Origin: Candidatus Binatota bacterium
GTDB taxonomy: Bacteria; Desulfobacterota; Binatia; Bin18
DNA: 34,785 nt
Assembly: GCA_011523265.1 (NCBI GenBank)
Contig: WTHD01000026.1
Span: 1-34,785 of the forward strand
Reading direction: 5' to 3'
In this document: positions 910 through 9,834 of the stretch, piece after piece
Position numbering within the stretch: the first letter of the stretch is position 1
How the letters are laid out: each line of letters starts with the position of its first letter
Notes under the pieces: model-generated
What the model was told of the DNA's origin: nothing
What the model saw: only the letters and a program-made list of their open reading frames with translations
The model's database searches: none
Translations under genes and position numbers: made by a program

Positions 910-1162
910 GAATTAGTCCCTCTCAAAATATCTTCTAAGTAAAGTAGGGTTAGAAATCTTTTCACAATGCAGCACAGTCAACTGTTCTTAATCCACATCA
1001 GACCTAGTAAGTATATAAATCCCAAAGCAAAGGGCAGCCCCGTGTGGTTACCTTTTGCTTATTCTTTCTGGGCCTCTCAACGTTGACATCGCCTCTAGGC
1101 AGACTTAGCGTATACTCATGCGCCTACCTTGGTTGGAACTGAGCGCGGAGGAGGTGACCACC

Positions 1163-2014
1163 ATGCTACGCACCACGCTTTTACTCGGTGCCCTGACCGG
1201 CCTGATTATGCTGATCGGGCAGTATTTTGGCGGTCCTCAGGGGCTGACCATTGCCTTTATCTTTGCCGTCATCATGAACTTTGGCAGCTACTGGTTTTCG
1301 GACAAGATCGTCCTCAAGATGTACGGCGCGCATCAGGTCTCGGAAGCCGACGCCCCGCAGCTCTACCGCATTGTTCACGCCCTGACCGTTCGGGCCGGGC
1401 TACCCATGCCCAAGCTGTATATTATCCCCTCCGAGGGAGCGAACGCCTTTGCCACGGGCCGGAATCCCGAAAACGCGGCCGTGGCCGTCACCCAGGGTAT
1501 CCTGCGTTTGATGAATGAGCGCGAGTTGACCGGCGTCCTAGCGCATGAACTCGCCCATGTGAAGAACCGCGACATCCTCATCAGCTCCATTGCCGCGACC
1601 TTGGCCGGGGTGATCATGATGATTGCCCATATGGCCCAGTGGGCCGCCATTTTTGGCGGGTTCAGCCGTAGTGATGACGACGAAGGCGGCGGCGGGATGC
1701 TGGGGCTCATTCTGATGGCCATCCTGGCGCCGCTGGCGGCCACAATTATCCAGATGGCGATCTCGCGTACGCGCGAATACGCCGCGGACCGGAGCGGCGC
1801 CCAGATGAGCGGCGACCCCGAGGGCCTGGCTTCGGCCCTGGAAAAGCTCGGCTTCGCGTCCGAGCGCGTTCCCATGGAGGCCTCGCCTCAGACGGCTCAC
1901 TTCTTTATCGTCAACCCGCTGTCCGGACGCTCCATGGCGGGCCTGTTTACCACCCATCCGCCGCTGGAAGAGCGTATCGCCCGGCTGCGGGCGATGTCCG
2001 GACGCATGGCGTAA
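1163..2014 (+). CDS. htpX: Membrane zinc metalloprotease HtpX (M48 family)
   Basis: HtpX homologues are inner-membrane zinc endoproteases that take part in membrane-protein quality control, with the active site on the cytoplasmic side. The sequence has two N-terminal hydrophobic segments, the zinc motif HELAH (His128 to His132) and a third ligand Glu205 in [10 protein letters not shown]. Two more hydrophobic stretches lie between them, around a Gly/Asp-rich loop. The 283-residue length fits the family. I chose the ATG at 1163 because GGAGGAGGTGA lies just before it and the protein then begins with the hydrophobic segment. An in-frame ATG at 1118 would add 15 polar residues and lacks such a site. 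A -10-like TATACT is at 1111-1116. A strong terminator follows the gene. Confidence 0.93.
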
Positions 2015-2043
2015 CGGCCTCGATCTTCACATGACCGTATGGA

Positions 2044-2074
2044 GGGGCAGCCCTTGTGGCTGCCCCTTTTGTTT
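2044..2074 (+). terminator. Intrinsic terminator of htpX
   Basis: A perfect 9-bp stem, GGGGCAGCC (2044-2052) with GGCTGCCCC (2058-2066), closes a 5-nt loop and is followed by TTTTGTTT. It lies 30 bp after the htpX stop codon and separates htpX from the next cassette. Confidence 0.9.
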
Positions 2075-2314
2075 CTCCATTCCCTCAACCCTAACGCTAT
2101 CGCTCCCCTCACTAACTTACGAAAACATTGAGACCCATTCGAATACGGTCGGTATGGTGTAAGTCCCTGAAATTCGCCGATCTGGACCTGTCTTCATTTG
2201 CACGAGCAAATTCGTTGTACCACGTTGTTCAAAAAATGCTTAACACACTTAAGAGGGCTATGTATACTGCCATACGTTACAATGAAGAACAACGAAGAAT
2301 ACAGGAGGAAAGCA

Positions 2315-4633
2315 ATGGAGACGAAAGTTCACAAAGCGACCAAAACGAGATCGAGCAGGCCAGGTTGGAGCGTAATCTTCAGCCACCCTTGTCGAAGGGA
2401 TGCCCGCGGCAGGCTGGGGCTGAAAGTGCGGCGTGGTCTTGGTACGACGAATGATGAAGAAGCTGATCAAATGGTTGAACAGCTTAACGAACTCCTCGCC
2501 AATTCGTACTGGTGGAGCATTGACCGACGTTCTGAGGCCGAACGACAGTTCGATAAAGTCGTCGCCTCAGCATTCTTTGACGGTATTGAAGTCGGCAAGA
2601 GCAATTCCAAAGACCTACGGGAAGAGATTATACAACTGCCCACTCCAGAGGATAACGAGGATAACTACGCACGGGTGATGCTAGTCGGCTCCACAGGGGC
2701 AGGCAAAACCACTCTGCTACGCCATTTCATCGGCTCCGACCATAAGCGCGACCGCTTCCCTTCCACATCGACAGCAAAGACGACAACGGCTGATATCGAG
2801 ATAGTAGTAGCAACCGGGCCTTTCAAGGCAGCGATAACCTTTATGACCGAGCACGAGGTTCGCTGTGCCGTTGACGAGTGTCTGGAAGCCGCCTGCGAGA
2901 GCATAATCCGGGAATACGAGGACACCAGGGTAGCTGAGGCTCTGCTGGAACATCGGGAACAGCGTTTTCGACTCTCCTATCCCCTCGGCGCATGGCAACA
3001 GGAGCAGCCGGGGCAGGAGGCAGACGACCAGTATGAGATGGATTACGAGTACGAAGGCGAAGCGGCGGAAGCGGGCACTTTGGCAGATGATGAAATCGTG
3101 GATGCAGTCGAAATTACTAAGAACAACGAACGCTTGAGTGAATACGTTTCTCGTATCAGGGAAGTCGCAACGGCGGTACGCAAGCAAATAGCGAAGGAGC
3201 GTGGCGACTTTCAGAACATGGACAACGCCAATCGTCGGCAAGACTGGCTGGAAGACTTCACCGATGCGTTGTACGAGAATCAGGATTTCGCCCAGCTCTC
3301 CCTTGATATCATGGATACCATCTCGGAGCGGTTCGAATTGGTTGTGACGGGTGATTTTGATCGTAGCGCAACAGGTTGGCCAACCCTTTGGCGCTACGAG
3401 GAAAAAGACCGCGACACCTTCCTGGAGCAGGTACGATGGTTTAGCAGTAATCACGACCAGCAGTTTGGGCGGCTGCTGACGCCTATGGTTAGCGGTATCC
3501 GGGTGCGCGGCTCGTTTCAGCCGGCTGTAGCCACCCTTCAGGATGATGACCGAAGGATTGTACTGTTGGATGGCGAGGGGCTAGGCCATTCGGCGAAGGA
3601 GGCCACAAGCGTATCCACAAAGGTAACTGAAAAGTTTCCTGAAGCGGACATGATTCTGCTTGTGGACAATGCGGAGTCTCCGATGCAGGCTGCCTCACTG
3701 GAACTCCTTCGGTCGGTTGGCAGTAGCGGTCACGGACACAAACTCGCTGTCGCTTTCACACATTTCGATCATGTGAAGGGTGACAACCTACGCACCTATA
3801 ACCAGAAGCAGAACCACGTTCGCGCCTCAATTGGTAACGCCCTTGTCAGTCTGCGCGAATCACTAGGGGCTCCAGTAACAGAGATACTGGAACAACAATT
3901 GACAAACAAAGATTTTTACTTGGGTGGTTTGGATAGGGTTACGAAGAAAATACCACGCCGTGATATCAGACAAATGAAGGACTTGTTTGAACAAATGCAG
4001 CAGGCGGTTAAAGATTCTGAGACGATTGCAGCCGCTCCAACTTATAACATCGCCCGATTGGAACTCGCTCTGCGCGACGCCACCGACGGGTTCAAAAATC
4101 CCTGGCGGGGTAGGTTGGGGCTCAGCTATTACGAAGGCATTCGCAAGGAGCACTGGGGGCGCGTTAAAGCGTTGTGCCGGCGCATAGCCAACCTTTGGGA
4201 TGATGAGTACAACGGACTACGGCCTGTCGCTGACCTAGTTCGCCAGTTACAAAATAGTATATCCCTATGGCTGGATAATCCTTCCGGCTGGACCAGACAG
4301 CCGGGTAATGAGGAAGAAGAGAAAACCGCTATAAACAAAATACGTCAGGAGGTGTTTGTCCGTATCCACAAGCTTGCAGTACAGCGTCTAATGACTAACA
4401 AACTCGACGCTTGGCGAACCGCTTTTGGGTTCAGCGGCAGGGGGTCAAGCCGTCTAAGGGCAGAGGAGATGGATCGAATATATAATGCTGCGGCGCCATC
4501 TATTACTTCTGCAATGGACCCTCCAACACAGGATTTCTTGAACCAAATCGTCCAGGATGTCAGCGACTCCATTGAGGAATCCGGTGGTTCGCTGAGCGGT
4601 ATTACCGAGCGCCCATCTACCAACGTTGGGTAA
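2315..4633 (+). CDS. Large P-loop GTPase with integrase-arm-like N-terminus
   Basis: This 772-residue protein has GTPase motifs: a P-loop GSTGAGKTT (125-133), a Thr-rich switch-I-like stretch STSTAKTTTAD soon after, G3 DGEGLG (Asp419-Gly422), and a G4-like THFD (482-485) followed by HVKGDN. Between P-loop and G3 is a long insert that is very acidic near residues 230-255 and partly helical. A helical C-terminal third follows. Residues about 16-65 (GWSVIF, then KVRRGLGTTNDEEADQMVEQ) resemble the arm-type DNA-binding domain of phage integrases. The start at 2315 is set by AGGAGG six bases upstream; an ATG at 2198 is in frame but has no such site. The gene has visibly lower G+C than htpX. It is followed after 40 bp by a glycosylase-like gene, presumably in one operon. 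A DNA-related or defence role is inference. Confidence 0.8.
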   Translation: METKVHKATKTRSSRPGWSVIFSHPCRRDARGRLGLKVRRGLGTTNDEEADQMVEQLNELLANSYWWSIDRRSEAERQFDKVVASAFFDGIEVGKSNSKDLREEIIQLPTPEDNEDNYARVMLVGSTGAGKTTLLRHFIGSDHKRDRFPSTSTAKTTTADIEIVVATGPFKAAITFMTEHEVRCAVDECLEAACESIIREYEDTRVAEALLEHREQRFRLSYPLGAWQQEQPGQEADDQYEMDYEYEGEAAEAGTLADDEIVDAVEITKNNERLSEYVSRIREVATAVRKQIAKERGDFQNMDNANRRQDWLEDFTDALYENQDFAQLSLDIMDTISERFELVVTGDFDRSATGWPTLWRYEEKDRDTFLEQVRWFSSNHDQQFGRLLTPMVSGIRVRGSFQPAVATLQDDDRRIVLLDGEGLGHSAKEATSVSTKVTEKFPEADMILLVDNAESPMQAASLELLRSVGSSGHGHKLAVAFTHFDHVKGDNLRTYNQKQNHVRASIGNALVSLRESLGAPVTEILEQQLTNKDFYLGGLDRVTKKIPRRDIRQMKDLFEQMQQAVKDSETIAAAPTYNIARLELALRDATDGFKNPWRGRLGLSYYEGIRKEHWGRVKALCRRIANLWDDEYNGLRPVADLVRQLQNSISLWLDNPSGWTRQPGNEEEEKTAINKIRQEVFVRIHKLAVQRLMTNKLDAWRTAFGFSGRGSSRLRAEEMDRIYNAAAPSITSAMDPPTQDFLNQIVQDVSDSIEESGGSLSGITERPSTNVG

Positions 4634-4644
4634 TCATATACTTG
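4621..4644. repeat. Left copy of a 24-bp inverted repeat around the UDG-like gene
   Basis: The sequence CAACGTTGGGTAAT then ATATACTTG, with one base between, matches 5365-5388 in inverted orientation at 23 of 24 positions. This copy carries the last two codons and stop of the GTPase gene. Similarity stops abruptly outside CAACG on both sides, as in terminal inverted repeats. The enclosed segment is 768 bp and holds only the UDG-like gene. Confidence 0.75.
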
Positions 4645-4673
4645 CCTAATCACGCAAAGAGAGGAGGATTCCG

Positions 4674-5330
4674 ATGGCCGAATGTGTAAGGGAGAACGAA
4701 GAAGGAGTGTATGGGTTTCGACCCTGGATTGGTGAGTATTACCAGCAGAATATGTGGGGACGGCGCGTTTTGGTCCTTGGTGAGTCACATTATCAATGGG
4801 ACGAAAATCAGCCAATTGACAACTGGCCTACCCTGACGATTGAATGCGTTGAGGAGACAATTGCTGGGGAATATACTGGTCGGTTCTGGACCAATATCGC
4901 GGTTGCATTTCTCAACCCCCTTCCTCATCACCTTCCCAGCTTGGCCGAAAAAGGAGAGTTCTGGCATTCCGTCGCGTTTTACAACTTCATTCAACAGGGA
5001 GTCGGATTTGGCCCGTACCCGAATCCGACTCCAGCAATGTGGACTGAAAGTCTCCCTGCCTTTCAGTCTCTCCTGAATACCCTTCAACCCGAGTTGGTCA
5101 TTGTCCTGGGAAGACAGAACTGGTGGAATATTCAGGGACTTGGTGGCCAAGAGGGGTGGCCCATAGAAGGGGCACGATATACAGAGACGCAGTGGTTACC
5201 ACACGCTGGTGGACAGTGCCTTGCGTATGGCATTTGCCATCCGTCTGCGCGTGGTCGGTATGGTTTTAATGGACGATATTGGCATCCCTTTATTATGCAG
5301 GCACTCCAGTATGCAGACGGGCCGCATTAA
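4674..5330 (+). CDS. Uracil-DNA-glycosylase-like protein
   Basis: A 218-residue protein with the layout of the uracil-DNA glycosylase superfamily. RVLVLGESHY (Gly36-Tyr40) sits where motif 1 (GQDPYH or GEAPG) is found, LVIVLGRQNWW is the central strand, and ICHPSARGRYGF (His189-Ser191) resembles motif 2 (HPSPLS). The middle segment FYNFIQQ, GFGPYPNPTPAMW and PAFQSLL looks family-specific. Known UDG-fold proteins remove deaminated or modified bases or bind DNA; the substrate here is unknown and activity is not assured, because motif 1 lacks the usual catalytic Asp. GAGGAGG precedes the ATG. The gene follows the GTPase gene by 40 bp, ends before a terminator, and lies inside 24-bp inverted repeats, which suggests it can move as a unit. 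Confidence 0.65.
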   Translation: MAECVRENEEGVYGFRPWIGEYYQQNMWGRRVLVLGESHYQWDENQPIDNWPTLTIECVEETIAGEYTGRFWTNIAVAFLNPLPHHLPSLAEKGEFWHSVAFYNFIQQGVGFGPYPNPTPAMWTESLPAFQSLLNTLQPELVIVLGRQNWWNIQGLGGQEGWPIEGARYTETQWLPHAGGQCLAYGICHPSARGRYGFNGRYWHPFIMQALQYADGPH

Positions 5331-5364
5331 AGAATACGGCCTGCTTTAGCCTAGGATGGTTATC

Positions 5365-5388
5365 CAAGTATATTATTACCCAACGTTG
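5365..5388. repeat. Right copy of the 24-bp inverted repeat
   Basis: Read on the minus strand it is CAACGTTGGGTAAT, one mismatched base, then ATATACTTG, the partner of 4621-4644. Outside the outer end (5389 onward) there is no match to the flank of the left copy, and no target-site duplication is evident. Confidence 0.75.
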
Positions 5389-5471
5389 CCCAATGATGAG
5401 AATGCAATCCCAACTTGTAGTTCCAAGACGACTGAGCCCTCTGTGCTGTTGTTTAGCGGGCATATTCTGAG

Positions 5472-5497
5472 GGCGGGCACAATGCCCGCCTTGTTTT
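5472..5497 (+). terminator. Intrinsic terminator after the GTPase/UDG-like pair
   Basis: An 8-bp stem, GGCGGGCA (5472-5479) with TGCCCGCC (5483-5490), has a 3-nt loop and is followed by TTGTTTT. It lies 140 bp after the UDG-like stop codon and probably ends the two-gene transcript. The rest of 5331-5609 holds no credible gene. Confidence 0.8.
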
Positions 5498-5521
5498 CAC
5501 TTCACTGCCAATAGGTTCAGC
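5496..5521. repeat. Direct repeat copy 1 of the cyclase 3' end
   Basis: The sequence TTCACTTCACTGCCAA followed by TAGGTTCAGC matches 6237-6262 at 23 of 26 positions. Read on the minus strand it gives LNLLAVK and a stop, close to the true cyclase end LNPLAVK. The two copies bracket the hicA-hicB module. Confidence 0.6.
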
Positions 5522-5609
5522 AGATACTGACTGTATGCGGATGGACAGGTCTGAGAACACGGGTTCAAGGAGCGTCTACTGCCTTTAAGGGTGACTCACG
5601 CAATCCCTC

Positions 5610-5945
5610 TCACGCCGACCCTGCGGGCAACGCCTTCTCCAATATTTCCTGGATATATGTATCGATACCCACCCGACGGCGAGCCGCTTCTAAAGCGAGA
5701 CGCCGGTGGAGTTCAGGACTTGTCTGGAACGCTAACTTTCCCGAGCACGGTGGCTCGGGCGCCCGCCCCTGTTCTCGGCAGAATGCAAGATATTCCTCCA
5801 CAGACTTCTGCATTTCTTCTCGGAGTTCCTTGACGGAGACACCGTAGAACGTAATCACGTCATTTGTGTTGATGACGGTTCCGTGAAAGGAGTCGATTTC
5901 GGAGTCGAACTCAAAGGTGCCGATATAGCCTTTGTACTCAATCAT
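5610..5945 (-). CDS. hicB: HicB-family antitoxin
   Basis: The 111-residue protein has the HicB layout: an N-terminal partial RNase-H-like fold (YKGYIGTFEFD, DSFHGTVINTNDVITFYG, LREEMQKSVEEYLAFC) and a C-terminal ribbon-helix-helix segment (SGKLAFQTSPELHRRLALEA, then GIDTYIQEILEKAL). HicB neutralises the HicA RNase and usually represses the operon. Its ATG overlaps the stop of the upstream hicA as ATGA, the classic arrangement. Because hicA carries a one-base lesion, this may now be a lone antitoxin or repressor. Confidence 0.9.
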   Translation of the reverse strand: MIEYKGYIGTFEFDSEIDSFHGTVINTNDVITFYGVSVKELREEMQKSVEEYLAFCREQGRAPEPPCSGKLAFQTSPELHRRLALEAARRRVGIDTYIQEILEKALPAGSA

Positions 5946-6194
5946 GGCCTAATCCCCACGTTTACGAGAAAACGCCGCACAGTTCTCACTGCGCCTTTAT
6001 CCATATTCGGGCTCGGATGCGGGCGATGGAACACCGCAACACGGTCATTCAGCAAAACAGCCACTCTCGACCCAACGCGCGCTCATGACAGCGCCTAAAG
6101 ATTCCAACAGTGATTCAACTTCTTGCCATTTAGTATTACCCAATATGGGCTGGGTGAAAAGCGCGTTGAGTGTCCTTCTGTGTCGTTTTGTCAT
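5942..6194 (-). pseudogene. hicA: HicA-family toxin, frameshifted
   Basis: Two overlapping frames together give a complete 83-residue HicA-like mRNA interferase. The first frame starts at the ATG at 6194 (MTKRHRRTLNALFTQP) and runs to about residue 40. The second continues GSRVAVLLNDRVAVFHRPHP and NMDKGAVRTVRRFL to the stop at 5944-5942. Removing one T from the TT pair (plus-strand AA at 6074-6075) joins them without any other change. With it, the first frame stops early and the FHRPHP segment is lost. The toxin stop overlaps the hicB start. It could be a true pseudogene, an assembly indel, or less likely a +1 frameshifting gene. Confidence 0.85.
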
Positions 6195-6236
6195 GAGTGC
6201 GTCGTTGTCTCGTTCCGGCGTCCTACCCGCCTCCTG

Positions 6237-6262
6237 TTCACTTCACCGCCAACGGGTTCAGC
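6237..6262. repeat. Direct repeat copy 2, at the cyclase 3' end
   Basis: This copy includes the last seven codons and stop of the cyclase gene. It matches 5496-5521 with three mismatches, so the toxin-antitoxin segment lies between a real gene end and an imitation of that end. Confidence 0.6.
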
Positions 6263-7176
6263 GGGCTGCCGACCGCGTTGGGGATGTTGAGCGGCGGGGC
6301 GACCCACAGGAATTCGTACACGCCGTCAGCGGCGCAGTCTTCTGCCAGGGCTTCGAAGGTAAAAATCTCACCCAGCGAGAGACCGAGGTCACGGATGGCG
6401 ACCTGATGAAAAGGAATGAATTCGTCATCCACTTCGGACGGCAGCCGTTCGACGGCGATATTGTCCACGGCAATGCAGGCAATTTCTTTCTGATGGATCC
6501 ATTCCGCAGTTGAGACCGAAACACCGGGCTGAGCGTGGAAGTAGGCTTCCTTCTGTTCCGGCGTTTCGAGCGTATACCAATACGGCACCCAGCCGGTGCG
6601 GATACATAGCGCGTCGCCACTTCTGACCTCGACGTTCTGCGCCTGACAGCAGCCGTCCAGGTCTTCGGCCGTAATCGGATAGTCGGCCGGGAGATGCCCG
6701 TCGGCTTCGCAGCCTTTGTAGCGGACCATATCGAGCAGCACGCCTCGGGTGACAAACGACTGGTACAGCTTACCAATATCGTTCCTGGACGCCCCGCCGT
6801 GGGCGGTGATGGCGCTGGCCGGCACATCGTTGTAGTACTTGCCGTCGTAGCCCACGTGGGCCAGGCTGTCCCACTGGGTCGAGCCTTGCAGATACATGGT
6901 AATATAGTCGTCGTTGGCAATGGCCGAGCCCGCCAGACCGACTTCCTTGACCGGGACGTTGAGGATCGACATAAACCGCTGGGGCGGGGTGCGGGTAGGA
7001 AAGACCGGTCCATCCTGGTCAATCGGAATGCAGCAGCAGAAAACCTGCCCCTTGCGGACCAGTCTGGCCGCGGCGACAATCACCTCCGGCGTAATGAAAT
7101 TGGCCGTCCCCTTTTCATCATCCGCTCCCCACCGACCCCAGTTTGAGACTTTTGGTATGGCTTCGCGTCCAGGCAT
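6238..7176 (-). CDS. Cyclase-family metal-dependent hydrolase
   Basis: A 312-residue member of the large branch of the cyclase/kynurenine-formamidase family (PF04199), recognised from NWGRWGADDEKGTANFITPE near the N-terminus, from STQWDSLAHVGYDGKYYND in place of the shorter HxGTHxDxPxH motif, and from IACIAVDNIAVERLPSE. These enzymes hydrolyse amides or lactones, often in degradation of aromatic compounds; the substrate here is unknown. AGGAGGG lies before the ATG. It is the last gene of a run of minus-strand genes, and its 3' end is duplicated at 5496-5521. Reaction class is well supported, specificity is not. Confidence 0.88.
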   Translation of the reverse strand: MPGREAIPKVSNWGRWGADDEKGTANFITPEVIVAAARLVRKGQVFCCCIPIDQDGPVFPTRTPPQRFMSILNVPVKEVGLAGSAIANDDYITMYLQGSTQWDSLAHVGYDGKYYNDVPASAITAHGGASRNDIGKLYQSFVTRGVLLDMVRYKGCEADGHLPADYPITAEDLDGCCQAQNVEVRSGDALCIRTGWVPYWYTLETPEQKEAYFHAQPGVSVSTAEWIHQKEIACIAVDNIAVERLPSEVDDEFIPFHQVAIRDLGLSLGEIFTFEALAEDCAADGVYEFLWVAPPLNIPNAVGSPLNPLAVK

Positions 7177-7265
7177 ACTCGCCCTCCTTTTTTGGAATAT
7201 GCCGTTGTTATAGCGGAGCCGGAGCAGCGCTTGTAGTGGACGCTTCCGCTCAGGAGCGGTCTTCT

Positions 7266-7973
7266 CTAGAGGGATTCAAGCACCGTTAGCAGCTCGTCCA
7301 AACCGCGGACAACGTGGCAGTCTGCGGTGCTCTGCTGACGACTGGAGCGCTCAATCAGGACCGGGGTAAGTCCGGCATTTTGTGCCCCGACAATATCCAG
7401 CTCATAGCTGTCACCGATGTGCAGGGCTTCTTGGGGGCGAAGATCACACTCTGTGAGTGCTTTCTGGAAGATGGCAGGCTCGGGCTTGGCCGCCCCGGCG
7501 CGCGTTGAGGCAACAATAGGGTCGAAGAAGTGGCCGATGTCCAAGCCGTTCAGCACGCCAAACAGACGCGCGTCGAAATTTGAAATCACCCCGAGACGGT
7601 ATTTACGTGCGTGCAGGGCCGTCAGCGTCTGGCGGGCTTCCGGATAAAGCTGCCACGCTCGCGGTTCGGCAAAGAAATCGTACAGGGCATGAAAGTAGGC
7701 TTCAAAACCGGGAAACGGGCCGAGCGGGGCAAAGACCTGCCGGACCACGTCATGCCACCAGGCTTTCTCCAGCCGTGGAATCTGGTCCGCGTCCGCGCCG
7801 GGAAAGGCCATGGGCGGCGCGGTGGCAAAGCAGCGTCGAAAGCCGGCTTCCAGGTCCCGGACGCTGACGGCCTTACCGTGCTCACGGGCCAGCCGGGCGT
7901 AGGTCTCGCCGACCGAGCCATTGACGCGAAGCAGCGTGCCCGCGGCGTCAAAAAATATGACGCGCATATCCAT
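7266..7973 (-). CDS. HAD-superfamily hydrolase (subfamily IA)
   Basis: The 235-residue protein has all four HAD motifs: FFDAAGTLL with nucleophile Asp near residue 9, VISNF (motif II), AAKPEPAIF (motif III Lys) and HIGDSYELDIVGAQNAG (motif IV). The second acidic residue of motif I is Ala (DAAGT instead of DxDGT), as in the DREG-2-like branch, which is compatible with phosphatase activity in some members. A helical cap lies at about 15-95. The start overlaps the end of the upstream aminotransferase gene by 26 bp, so the two are probably translationally coupled. An in-frame ATG two codons later is an equally good start. Substrate unknown. Confidence 0.88.
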   Translation of the reverse strand: MDMRVIFFDAAGTLLRVNGSVGETYARLAREHGKAVSVRDLEAGFRRCFATAPPMAFPGADADQIPRLEKAWWHDVVRQVFAPLGPFPGFEAYFHALYDFFAEPRAWQLYPEARQTLTALHARKYRLGVISNFDARLFGVLNGLDIGHFFDPIVASTRAGAAKPEPAIFQKALTECDLRPQEALHIGDSYELDIVGAQNAGLTPVLIERSSRQQSTADCHVVRGLDELLTVLESL

Positions 7974-9189
7974 CGTCCGTCTTCAGTATCTCATCCAGCG
8001 CGGCTAACAAGGCGTCAATGTCGTCCCGGCTGGTATAGTAATGAATCGAGACCCGCAGCCCGCCGACCCCGGAGCAGTACCGCACGGTCGGATAAATATT
8101 CCGGGCTTCCAGCGCCTGATTGAGTTGATGGACCCGGTCCGCGTCCGCAAACGGCTCGCAGGTGACAATGCCCGACCGCAGCGCGTGCGCCTCTTGGGTC
8201 CAGACCTTGATGTCGCGGCGTTTCAGCTCCTCTATCAGAACGTCGCCCAGCGACAGAATATGCTCGGTGACGGCGGCCGAGTCGAGTTGATTGACATAGG
8301 CCAGTGACTCTGCTAGGCCCGCGGTCCCGAGATTTTTGGGCATGCCATGGACCTCGAACCGGCGGGCGTCCGAGGCCAGGGGCAGGGACATAAAGGGCGT
8401 CAGCCCTGGGTCGCCAAGATAGCGGAGCCACCCTTCCGGCGGCTCGGCCAGCGCGAACAGGCCGTGCGCCAAGCCCGGTTCGACCTGCTGCTGGACTTCC
8501 GAACGGATGTATAGCAGCCCGATATTGAACGGCGCGTTCAGCCATTTCTGGGCACCTGCGGCGAGAAAGTCGACGCGCAGATTTGAAACATCGAGCGGCA
8601 GGGCGCCCAACTGCTGAATGGCGTCCACCACCAGAAAACACTCCCGCTCTTCGGCCAGGTGTGAAAACGCGGCCAGGTCCATACGCAGGCCGTTGATCCA
8701 TTGCACCGAACTCACCACGATCGCGCGGGTATGTTGGTCCATCAAGCGGGCATAGTCATCCACACCAATCAGGCCGTCCCGATGACGCGCAACCCGAACC
8801 TCAACCGCCTGCTGCTTCTGGGAGTGGGCGGCGCTGATGGCAACCTGCGGATACTCCAGGTCGCACAGCACGATATTATCACCAGGGGCAAAAGGAATAG
8901 CGGCCAGGGCGGTATTCAGCCCCATGGTGGTATCGTCGGTAAAGGCGATTTCCGTGGGCTGAGCCCTGAGCAGCCGAGCGGCTTCCTGTCTGGCCTGAAC
9001 GCTCGGCTTGCCGAGCGCCTGATAATAGGCTGGGTAGCCCATCTCAGCCGGCCCCTGACCGAGCAGGGTCGCCGCGCGTTGGACGGCCTGGGTTGCGGAC
9101 CTCGGCGGCAGCCCAATCCCGGCAGCATTCAGATAGACCTGTTGCGTCGTTCCCGGAAAATCCGCGCGTACCGCGTTCACGTCAAACAT
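7948..9189 (-). CDS. Class V aminotransferase (cysteine-desulfurase/epimerase-like)
   Basis: A 413-residue fold-type I PLP enzyme. YLNAAGIGLPP at the N-terminus, TTMGLNTAL, the PLP-contacting Asp in DAIQQLGALPLDV, and the Schiff-base Lys215 in AAGAQKWLNAP are visible. The family includes cysteine desulfurases, isopenicillin-N epimerase-like enzymes and kynureninase relatives. A catalytic Cys loop of a classical IscS is not evident, so the substrate is open. I chose the ATG at 9189 because GGGAGGGAGT precedes it and residues then match the usual start (FDVNAVRADFPG). An upstream in-frame ATG at 9249 has no such site. It is coupled to the HAD gene downstream. Confidence 0.85.
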   Translation of the reverse strand: MFDVNAVRADFPGTTQQVYLNAAGIGLPPRSATQAVQRAATLLGQGPAEMGYPAYYQALGKPSVQARQEAARLLRAQPTEIAFTDDTTMGLNTALAAIPFAPGDNIVLCDLEYPQVAISAAHSQKQQAVEVRVARHRDGLIGVDDYARLMDQHTRAIVVSSVQWINGLRMDLAAFSHLAEERECFLVVDAIQQLGALPLDVSNLRVDFLAAGAQKWLNAPFNIGLLYIRSEVQQQVEPGLAHGLFALAEPPEGWLRYLGDPGLTPFMSLPLASDARRFEVHGMPKNLGTAGLAESLAYVNQLDSAAVTEHILSLGDVLIEELKRRDIKVWTQEAHALRSGIVTCEPFADADRVHQLNQALEARNIYPTVRYCSGVGGLRVSIHYYTSRDDIDALLAALDEILKTDDGYARHIF

Positions 9190-9279: not shown

Positions 9280-9834
9280 TCAATGATACACCACGCGCTC
9301 TTCACCGGACGAGGTAATGGCACTCAGCAGGCGGTCAATGGCGATCCGAAGCTGTCGCTCGTTCTCTTTGAGCCGAGGCTCTCCGTCAGTACTTGGTCGG
9401 CTCTCTCCGGCTCGCTCCCGAAAGGCGTCGAGCTGGATTTCCAGGCGCTCGGCAAGTAAACGATCCGTGTCCGCCAAGGCGGGCAGGCTGAGGCGTCCGG
9501 TGTCGAATTCATCGGCAACAGTCAGCAAACGGTTGAGCAGGCCGGTGTGGTATTTGCCAACTTCTGTCAGCAGGGACGAGTGGTGACGAATGGGCTTGAG
9601 AAAAAAGGCACTCCCAAACGCCCGGACAGCCCCGGTCAGGTCGCCGCGTTCAAGCAGTTCATCGCCGCGCTGACAGCGCAGACTCTGACGGCGAAAAGCC
9701 GCCCGTTCAAACAGGCCGCCAAAGGAAGCCCGGAATCCCCCAAGGAAAATCTTGCCCAAGATATAAATGAGGCCAATACTGATGGCCAGAAAGCTCAGGC
9801 TCAGGAGCAGCGTGAGAGCAGACACGTCCGGCAT
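9280..9834 (-). CDS. Hypothetical membrane-anchored protein
   Basis: This 184-residue protein starts with one hydrophobic segment (about residues 5-32, ALTLLLSLSFLAISIGLIYI), followed by a helical, charged cytoplasmic or periplasmic part. CQRGDELLERGDLTGAVRAF with AFFLKP resembles a single TPR-like helix pair, and the C-terminal half has heptad-like Leu spacing (LPALADTDRLLAERLEI). An AAGAGGTGG stretch lies before the start. It sits between the NYN-domain gene and the aminotransferase, same strand, with gaps near 100 bp. No family recognised; the TPR reading is inference. Confidence 0.7.
   Translation of the reverse strand: MPDVSALTLLLSLSFLAISIGLIYILGKIFLGGFRASFGGLFERAAFRRQSLRCQRGDELLERGDLTGAVRAFGSAFFLKPIRHHSSLLTEVGKYHTGLLNRLLTVADEFDTGRLSLPALADTDRLLAERLEIQLDAFRERAGESRPSTDGEPRLKENERQLRIAIDRLLSAITSSGEERVVYH

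Follow-up and report, generated by a model that had tools for sequence, protein, structure and literature searches.

We describe a gene that we read, with roughly even confidence, as encoding a horizontally moving dynamin-like GTPase, most likely engaged in anti-phage or anti-element defence and bearing an accessory domain, made up of three strands and a helix, that is of the integrase-arm type. The gene lies in a contig of 34,785 nucleotides from a Candidatus Binatota bacterium, the whole of which is referred to as the window. The open frame containing it spans 2198-4633 on the forward strand, and translation likely starts, judging from the sequence, at the ATG at 2315 just downstream of AGGAGG, giving a product of 772 amino acids. 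The gene (2315-4630, forward strand) is present in a single copy in the genome assembly, and its product was divided as follows:

2315-2512, forward strand: N-terminal arm-like module (residues 1-66), studied by alignment, predicted structure, charge and profile tests
2513-2650, forward strand: linker (residues 67-112), with helices at 69-78 and 81-95 in the short model
2651-4630, forward strand: dynamin-superfamily-like GTPase body, studied by alignment, full-length model and structure searches

A preliminary description of this DNA had noticed in residues of about 16-65 of a GTPase the stretches GWSVIF and KVRRGLGTTNDEEADQMVEQ and a helix, in the pattern of the arm-type DNA-binding domains of tyrosine integrases. 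Residues 16-65 map exactly to 2360-2509, and all of these elements are there: GWSVIF at residues 17-22, KVRRGLGTTNDEEADQMVEQ at residues 37-56 and a predicted helix at residues 47-62, in an open frame and a conserved region. Thirteen residues (A8, F22, H24, P25, R27, G35, R39, G41, L42, T44, N58, L61 and A75) are invariant in 16 aligned N-termini, and because the relatives sharing them are as little as 43% identical over the module stretch, this conservation exceeds chance. The alignments left out L036, whose N-terminus is missing, L026, L032 and L035 as the same proteins as L025, L031 and L027, respectively, and the Rhizobium records L012 and H4 as duplicating the L006 hit. Within the first 80 residues, where an arm-type fold was expected, AlphaFold2 supplied with 13 aligned sequences predicted three strands (residues 9-12, 18-28 and 34-41) and the helix, followed by two more helices; these elements were read from DSSP, the sheet topology not being inspected in the coordinates. 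The mean pLDDT of this short model was 78-90 per ten-residue block over residues 11-90 and 75.9 over all 112 residues. The full-length model gave the same N-terminal elements, with the same 13 proteins as input, so that it does not count as independent. The net charge is +10 over residues 1-45 and -28 from residue 111 onward; up to the GT motif it is +7 to +11 in 15 of the 16 N-termini, the sixteenth (L004) lacking the motif searched for. We conclude that the N-terminal domain noticed at first reading is a real, separable domain.

Its kinship with integrase arms was only partly borne out by profile searches. A Pfam scan of the 16 members gave DUF6538 as the commonest weak match (4/16, best E 0.0073), followed by TOPRIM_C (3/16, best E 0.0096) and ALN (1/16, E 0.17); TOPRIM_C, which was left out of the shuffle test below, is nearly as strong as DUF6538 by single E-value, and therefore the Pfam match alone proves nothing. 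The best DUF6538 score was 16.4 bits against a cut-off of 27, no match reached a curated family cut-off, and the match covers strand 3 and the helix only (27-31 residues by Pfam, 23 columns by hhalign). Residues 1-83 of the window protein, scanned alone, matched no Pfam family; the N-termini gave nothing in NCBIfam and three weak matches in PHROGs, none of them integrase-named. AP2 (PF00847), a family also named for comparison at first reading, was among the Pfam matches of none of the 16 members, and AP2 loci were found in 2 of 198 genomes, too few for a profile comparison.

A preference for particular arm families emerged when scores were calibrated by shuffling. The profile sets comprised 11 sequences for DUF6538 (L057 dropped), 7 for Arm-DNA-bind_2 (L124 dropped) and 26 for Arm-DNA-bind_3 (L109 and L120 dropped, L111 and L112 without an open frame); a separate DUF6538 alignment held 10, and PF14657, represented by one locus, was left out. 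The DUF6538 places were fetched from same-phylum genomes (15 found, 12 examined, not including L054, L058 and L060), and the ORFs of 5 of the 12 contain a tyrosine-recombinase motif of the HxLRH type (our own pattern), further C-termini being alike by eye. Against the DUF6538 profile the module scored 23.0, a value reached by none of 200 column shuffles (mean 9.9, maximum 18.4), and against Arm-DNA-bind_2 19.4, again reached by 0/200 (maximum 18.3), whereas the score of 11.5 against Arm-DNA-bind_3 was at chance, being reached by 90/200. For scale, DUF6538 scored 15.7 and 17.4 against the two Arm-DNA-bind families, and those two 27.7 mutually. Among 31 overlapping segments of the body starting after residue 70, the maxima were 14.7 for DUF6538, 16.0 for Arm-DNA-bind_2 and 20.5 for Arm-DNA-bind_3, with some segments outscoring the module on the last profile. 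The hhalign probabilities were low: 28.8 in the 23-column DUF6538 comparison, and 19.6, 4.9 and 0.2 in the shuffle-tested set. When the module profile was run against 3818 six-frame segments of integrase loci, an arm domain ranked first (E 0.073) and two arms stood in the top ten, with L054, a sub-cutoff DUF6538 match at rank seven, counted as non-arm; with 100 shuffled profiles an arm came first in 2, and the top ten never held more than one. Within 395 same-phylum genomes, at most 13 candidates being scored per genome, the module profile found no non-self match better than E 0.016.

Structural comparison, also proposed at first reading, brought no significant counterpart: when the N-terminal model was submitted to Foldseek, neither PDB nor BFVD returned a match at E 0.001, and the N-terminal alignment, used as a profile against the sequences of solved structures, matched nothing up to E 10. 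In a second look with VIA, the best rows were enolase-superfamily N-terminal regions (Z 5.0-6.2), then PI-SceI (4.1) and PX, yegP-type and ribosomal chains (about 3); an arm-type chain is absent among the 50 rows listed, which is not evidence of absence. These rows, the lack of a Foldseek match and the lack of fit to Arm-DNA-bind_3 all speak for a module of another kind, namely a sheet-plus-helix domain for protein contacts, self-assembly or RNA/ribosome binding, in which the arm likeness would be a common strand-helix motif. We take this possibility seriously while placing it short of probable: the enolase-type Z values are below 8, as is common between unrelated chains in VIA, and the calibrated profile preference for DUF6538 and Arm-DNA-bind_2 and the strong basic charge argue for an arm. 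The arm-like fold of the module is thus probable; homology with integrase arms is the favoured reading, short of established, common ancestry is possible, and DNA binding is plausible. Like the DUF6538 (PF20172) and Arm-DNA-bind_2 (PF12167) domains of tyrosine integrases, the module is N-terminal and has the strand-3/helix motif, which reads RxGLGTxDxxEA in the module and xxSLxTxxxxxA in the aligned DUF6538 set. Unlike them, it is joined to a GTPase instead of a recombinase and scores below the cut-offs, and its HP-x-R-x-D loop is not seen in the aligned DUF6538 domains.

The naming of the protein as a GTPase held good, with Pfam MMR_HSR1 over its cut-off (22.8 vs. 21.9 bits) and a predicted body that matches dynamins and other GTPases; AAA_22 is also narrowly over cut-off, and both Pfam matches lie at the P-loop region. 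The GSTGAGKT at residues 125-132 fits the P-loop GxxxxGK[ST], with G125, T127, G128, A129, G130, K131 and T132 invariant in 10 aligned proteins. We take this stretch to be G1, DGEG at 419-422 to be G3, and THFD at 482-485 to be the probable G4. THFD, invariant in the 10 aligned proteins, departs from the G4 pattern [NT]KxD, and two distant relatives have SKLD and AKLD at its place. Foldseek of the body model put the bacterial dynamin pair Cj-DLP first (E 3.4e-6), also matched SynDLP, Fzo1 and mitofusin-1, and gave LeoA as the 41st match. In VIA, the body matched Fzo1 at Z 16.8 (rmsd 4.0, 234 aligned), MFN1 at 15.8, a SynDLP fragment at 15.2, BDLP at 14.9 and IniA at 14.4, with EF-Tu close behind the dynamins at 14.1. 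In the full-length model, which is of middling quality (mean pLDDT 72.4), the predicted G-domain fold appears closest to dynamins.

The predicted G domain and its flanking helices superpose with those of the bacterial dynamin-like proteins (BDLP, the Cj-DLP pair, SynDLP, IniA and LeoA) and of mitofusin/Fzo1, while several features set the protein apart. In contrast to bacterial dynamins and Fzo1, it has a largely helical insertion, about 165 residues long (approximately 179-345), ahead of G3, which is unusual for dynamins, as well as the N-terminal arm-like module and no hydrophobic segment; a membrane-like segment was not found, the maximum 19-residue Kyte-Doolittle mean being 1.17. The C-terminal part of the body is also helical. 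Dynamins carry DxPG and TKxD where the GTPase here has DGEG and THFD. PADLOC gave five partial matches only, all of the P-loop type (best mad8, E 2e-5, residues 121-169), and none of its models matched over most of the length.

The GTPase was found in 3 of 58 genomes searched, the window's own included, all belonging to one genus with 7 genomes in the set; 7 of 395 phylum genomes (again with the window's own) match at E 0.001 or better, mostly in part. Relatives occur in 11 of 72,556 plasmid records (33.6-42.0% identity) from Bradyrhizobium, Agrobacterium, Rhizobium, Caballeronia, Azospirillum and Rhodococcus, and at 15 IMG/VR loci by alignment search (0 by single-sequence search), whereas the phage collection yielded no record with a relative. 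The module is present in the aligned proteobacterial plasmid copies, in the same-genus copies and in 14 of the 15 IMG/VR loci, i.e., those with the start preserved. It is absent from four aligned Rhodococcus copies, which also lack most of the linker and start just before the P-loop region; a fifth Rhodococcus record (H10) lay outside the comparison. In two distant same-phylum matches an in-frame stop lies at most some 55 residues ahead of the P-loop, too close for the module to fit in between, and in one of the two the frame is interrupted by many additional stops. A search of 992 six-frame segments from the four Rhodococcus loci did not turn up the module as a gene of its own nearby (best E 0.37). 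Nor was the module seen fused to other proteins in the 15 viral loci (14 on contigs already known) or in 7 plasmid records, six of which are the GTPase and one a chance match at E 3. The new viral locus, L039, contains a 781-aa ORF that by its size may belong to the family. On alignment evidence, the module is a separable, optional part of the GTPase family, carried by a large branch of it and not by all. Since natural copies with and without it exist, its role is directly testable.

A comparison of the flanks placed the gene in a variable chromosomal slot, for which the relevant features are:

1118-2014, forward strand: HtpX-like gene (named by eye), slot flank
2071-6235, no strand: segment missing from same-genus genome G001, where the slot is empty, by flank comparison
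4674-5330, forward strand: 218-aa gene 40 bases downstream of the GTPase, with a sub-cutoff uracil-DNA-glycosylase-superfamily match (UDG-like gene)
6238-7176, reverse strand: cyclase-family-like gene (named by eye), slot flank

The two flanks were looked up in all 7 genomes of the genus, and the slot was readable in 6. It is empty in G001, where 5 bases separate the matching blocks vs. 4165 in the window, and near-empty in G006 (289 bases). In the window's own genome the GTPase shares it with the UDG-like gene and a HicB-family gene; in G003 it contains Septu genes (PADLOC PtuA E 2.8e-148, PtuB 4e-104) together with the GTPase; in G004, PtuA (E 7.9e-151) and a TmtA-like protein (3.2e-79); and in G005, a kinase gene weakly like PD-T4-6 (PADLOC E 5.4e-13, kinase region only) and a gene for a 249-aa product with no match. 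The slot is unreadable in G002, where each flank lies on a contig of its own and the GTPase, with other genes around it, on yet another. The GTPase thus occupies the slot in 2 of the 6 readable genomes, L002 and contig C2 of G003 being evidently one contig and counted as one copy. The gene is mobile, because the slot is empty, near-empty or otherwise filled in relatives and other copies lie among prophage structural genes.

The slot region (2012-6240 in the window; counterparts L149, L150, L151, L152 and L153) also contains repeats, and no integrase gene was noticed in it. In G003, G004 and G005 the HtpX 3′ end recurs in degenerate form within the slot, whereas in the window the repeated sequence is at the cyclase side. 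There, an imperfect direct repeat (5485-5521 and 6226-6262, 84% over 37 nt) flanks the HicB-family gene (5610-5945, reverse strand); its second copy extends into the end of the cyclase gene and may mark a cassette boundary.

Seven phage neighbourhoods were scanned (L025, L028, L031, L032, L033, L035 and L039). In L032 (region 4510-8954) the GTPase is antisense, with a tail gene (phrog_290) on one side and a phrog_6367 gene on the other; such neighbours were confirmed on the tail side in L025, on the phrog_6367 side in L028 and L033, and as a tail tube gene (Pfam) in L031. A tape-measure gene is nearby in L035, and in L039 the GTPase comes after a head-protease gene of the same orientation. On plasmids, the annotated neighbours are patatin with a nucleotidyltransferase, an Abi protein, and type I restriction genes (one plasmid each), those of the other copies being mostly metabolic, regulatory or hypothetical. 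A defence role is probable because the slot also holds Septu, TmtA-like and PD-T4-6-like kinase genes and because copies occupy a cargo position among phage structural genes. The location of relatives among phage structural genes and on plasmids would also fit a mobile-element fitness factor outside defence, e.g., a prophage or plasmid gene for host lysis, membrane repair or element maintenance, and DynA of B. subtilis is reported to work by delaying lysis (PMC8844932). We consider such a role unlikely, given the slot shared within the genus by the GTPase and PADLOC-named defence genes and the patatin, Abi and restriction neighbours on plasmids.

If the defence reading with an arm-type domain is right, the basic sheet of the module may contact DNA as integrase arms do, candidate residues being R27, K37 and R39. 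Such a contact would place or trigger the GTPase on DNA, most obviously on incoming phage or plasmid DNA, after which the GTP-driven assembly of the body could block the invader, or kill or protect the cell; the module-free copies would act via the GTPase body alone or have another trigger. GTP hydrolysis would be linked to DNA, provided that the likeness of the module is functional. Antiviral dynamins are known in animals. A stronger version, which we put forward tentatively and think rather doubtful, is a dynamin-superfamily GTPase whose acquired integrase arm domain recognises invading phage or plasmid DNA and whose GTP-driven assembly takes place on that DNA, i.e., a DNA-sensing equivalent of Mx and similar antiviral dynamins that prophages, plasmids and a chromosomal defence slot would spread. 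If true, a DNA-gripping dynamin-like GTPase on mutually warring elements would tie GTPase assembly to the recognition of foreign DNA.

The nearest functional precedent that we found is DynA, a membrane-remodelling dynamin-superfamily GTPase with a reported anti-phage effect (PMC8844932). The likeness, drawn from its description and not from sequence, lies in the superfamily and in the effect on phage; its abstract mentions no arm-like domain, unlike the GTPase here. Slowing phage release at the membrane, as reported for that one bacterial dynamin, differs from the route that a DNA-gripping one would take, if true. The DO-GTPase conflict systems (PMC7159879) are described as GTPases of the TRAFAC clade that occur in prokaryotic conflict loci and in many cases have an additional N-terminal domain, as here; zinc ribbons or TM segments and a partner, GAP1, are found with them, whereas no such partner was noticed by eye beside the GTPase. 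In the open literature (subscription papers lying outside this scope), we found no paper that mentions DUF6538, none in which the arm type, a tyrosine recombinase, a DNA-binding domain and a GTPase all occur together, and none that links a dynamin-like GTPase to a defence island.

Enzymes of the UDG superfamily have DNA as their substrate. A two-gene DNA-directed system made up of the GTPase and the UDG-like gene, which lies on the same strand 40 bases away, is nonetheless highly improbable, with the UDG match below cut-off (E 0.014, 15.9 vs. 24.3 bits), no UDG-like ORF seen by eye after the GTPase in G003 (L002/L153) or G002 (L154), and no UDG annotated beside the plasmid relatives. Two minor observations concern plasmid copies. 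On the Agrobacterium plasmid, a 598-aa protein (L006, 8266-10062) without a Pfam or PADLOC match at E 0.01 comes right after the GTPase, and a protein of the same accession adjoins the Rhizobium copy (L012). In L008, PLSDB names an 89-aa ORF (9303-9572) as the efflux resistance gene baeS at 100% identity, the small size of which suggests a spurious prediction.
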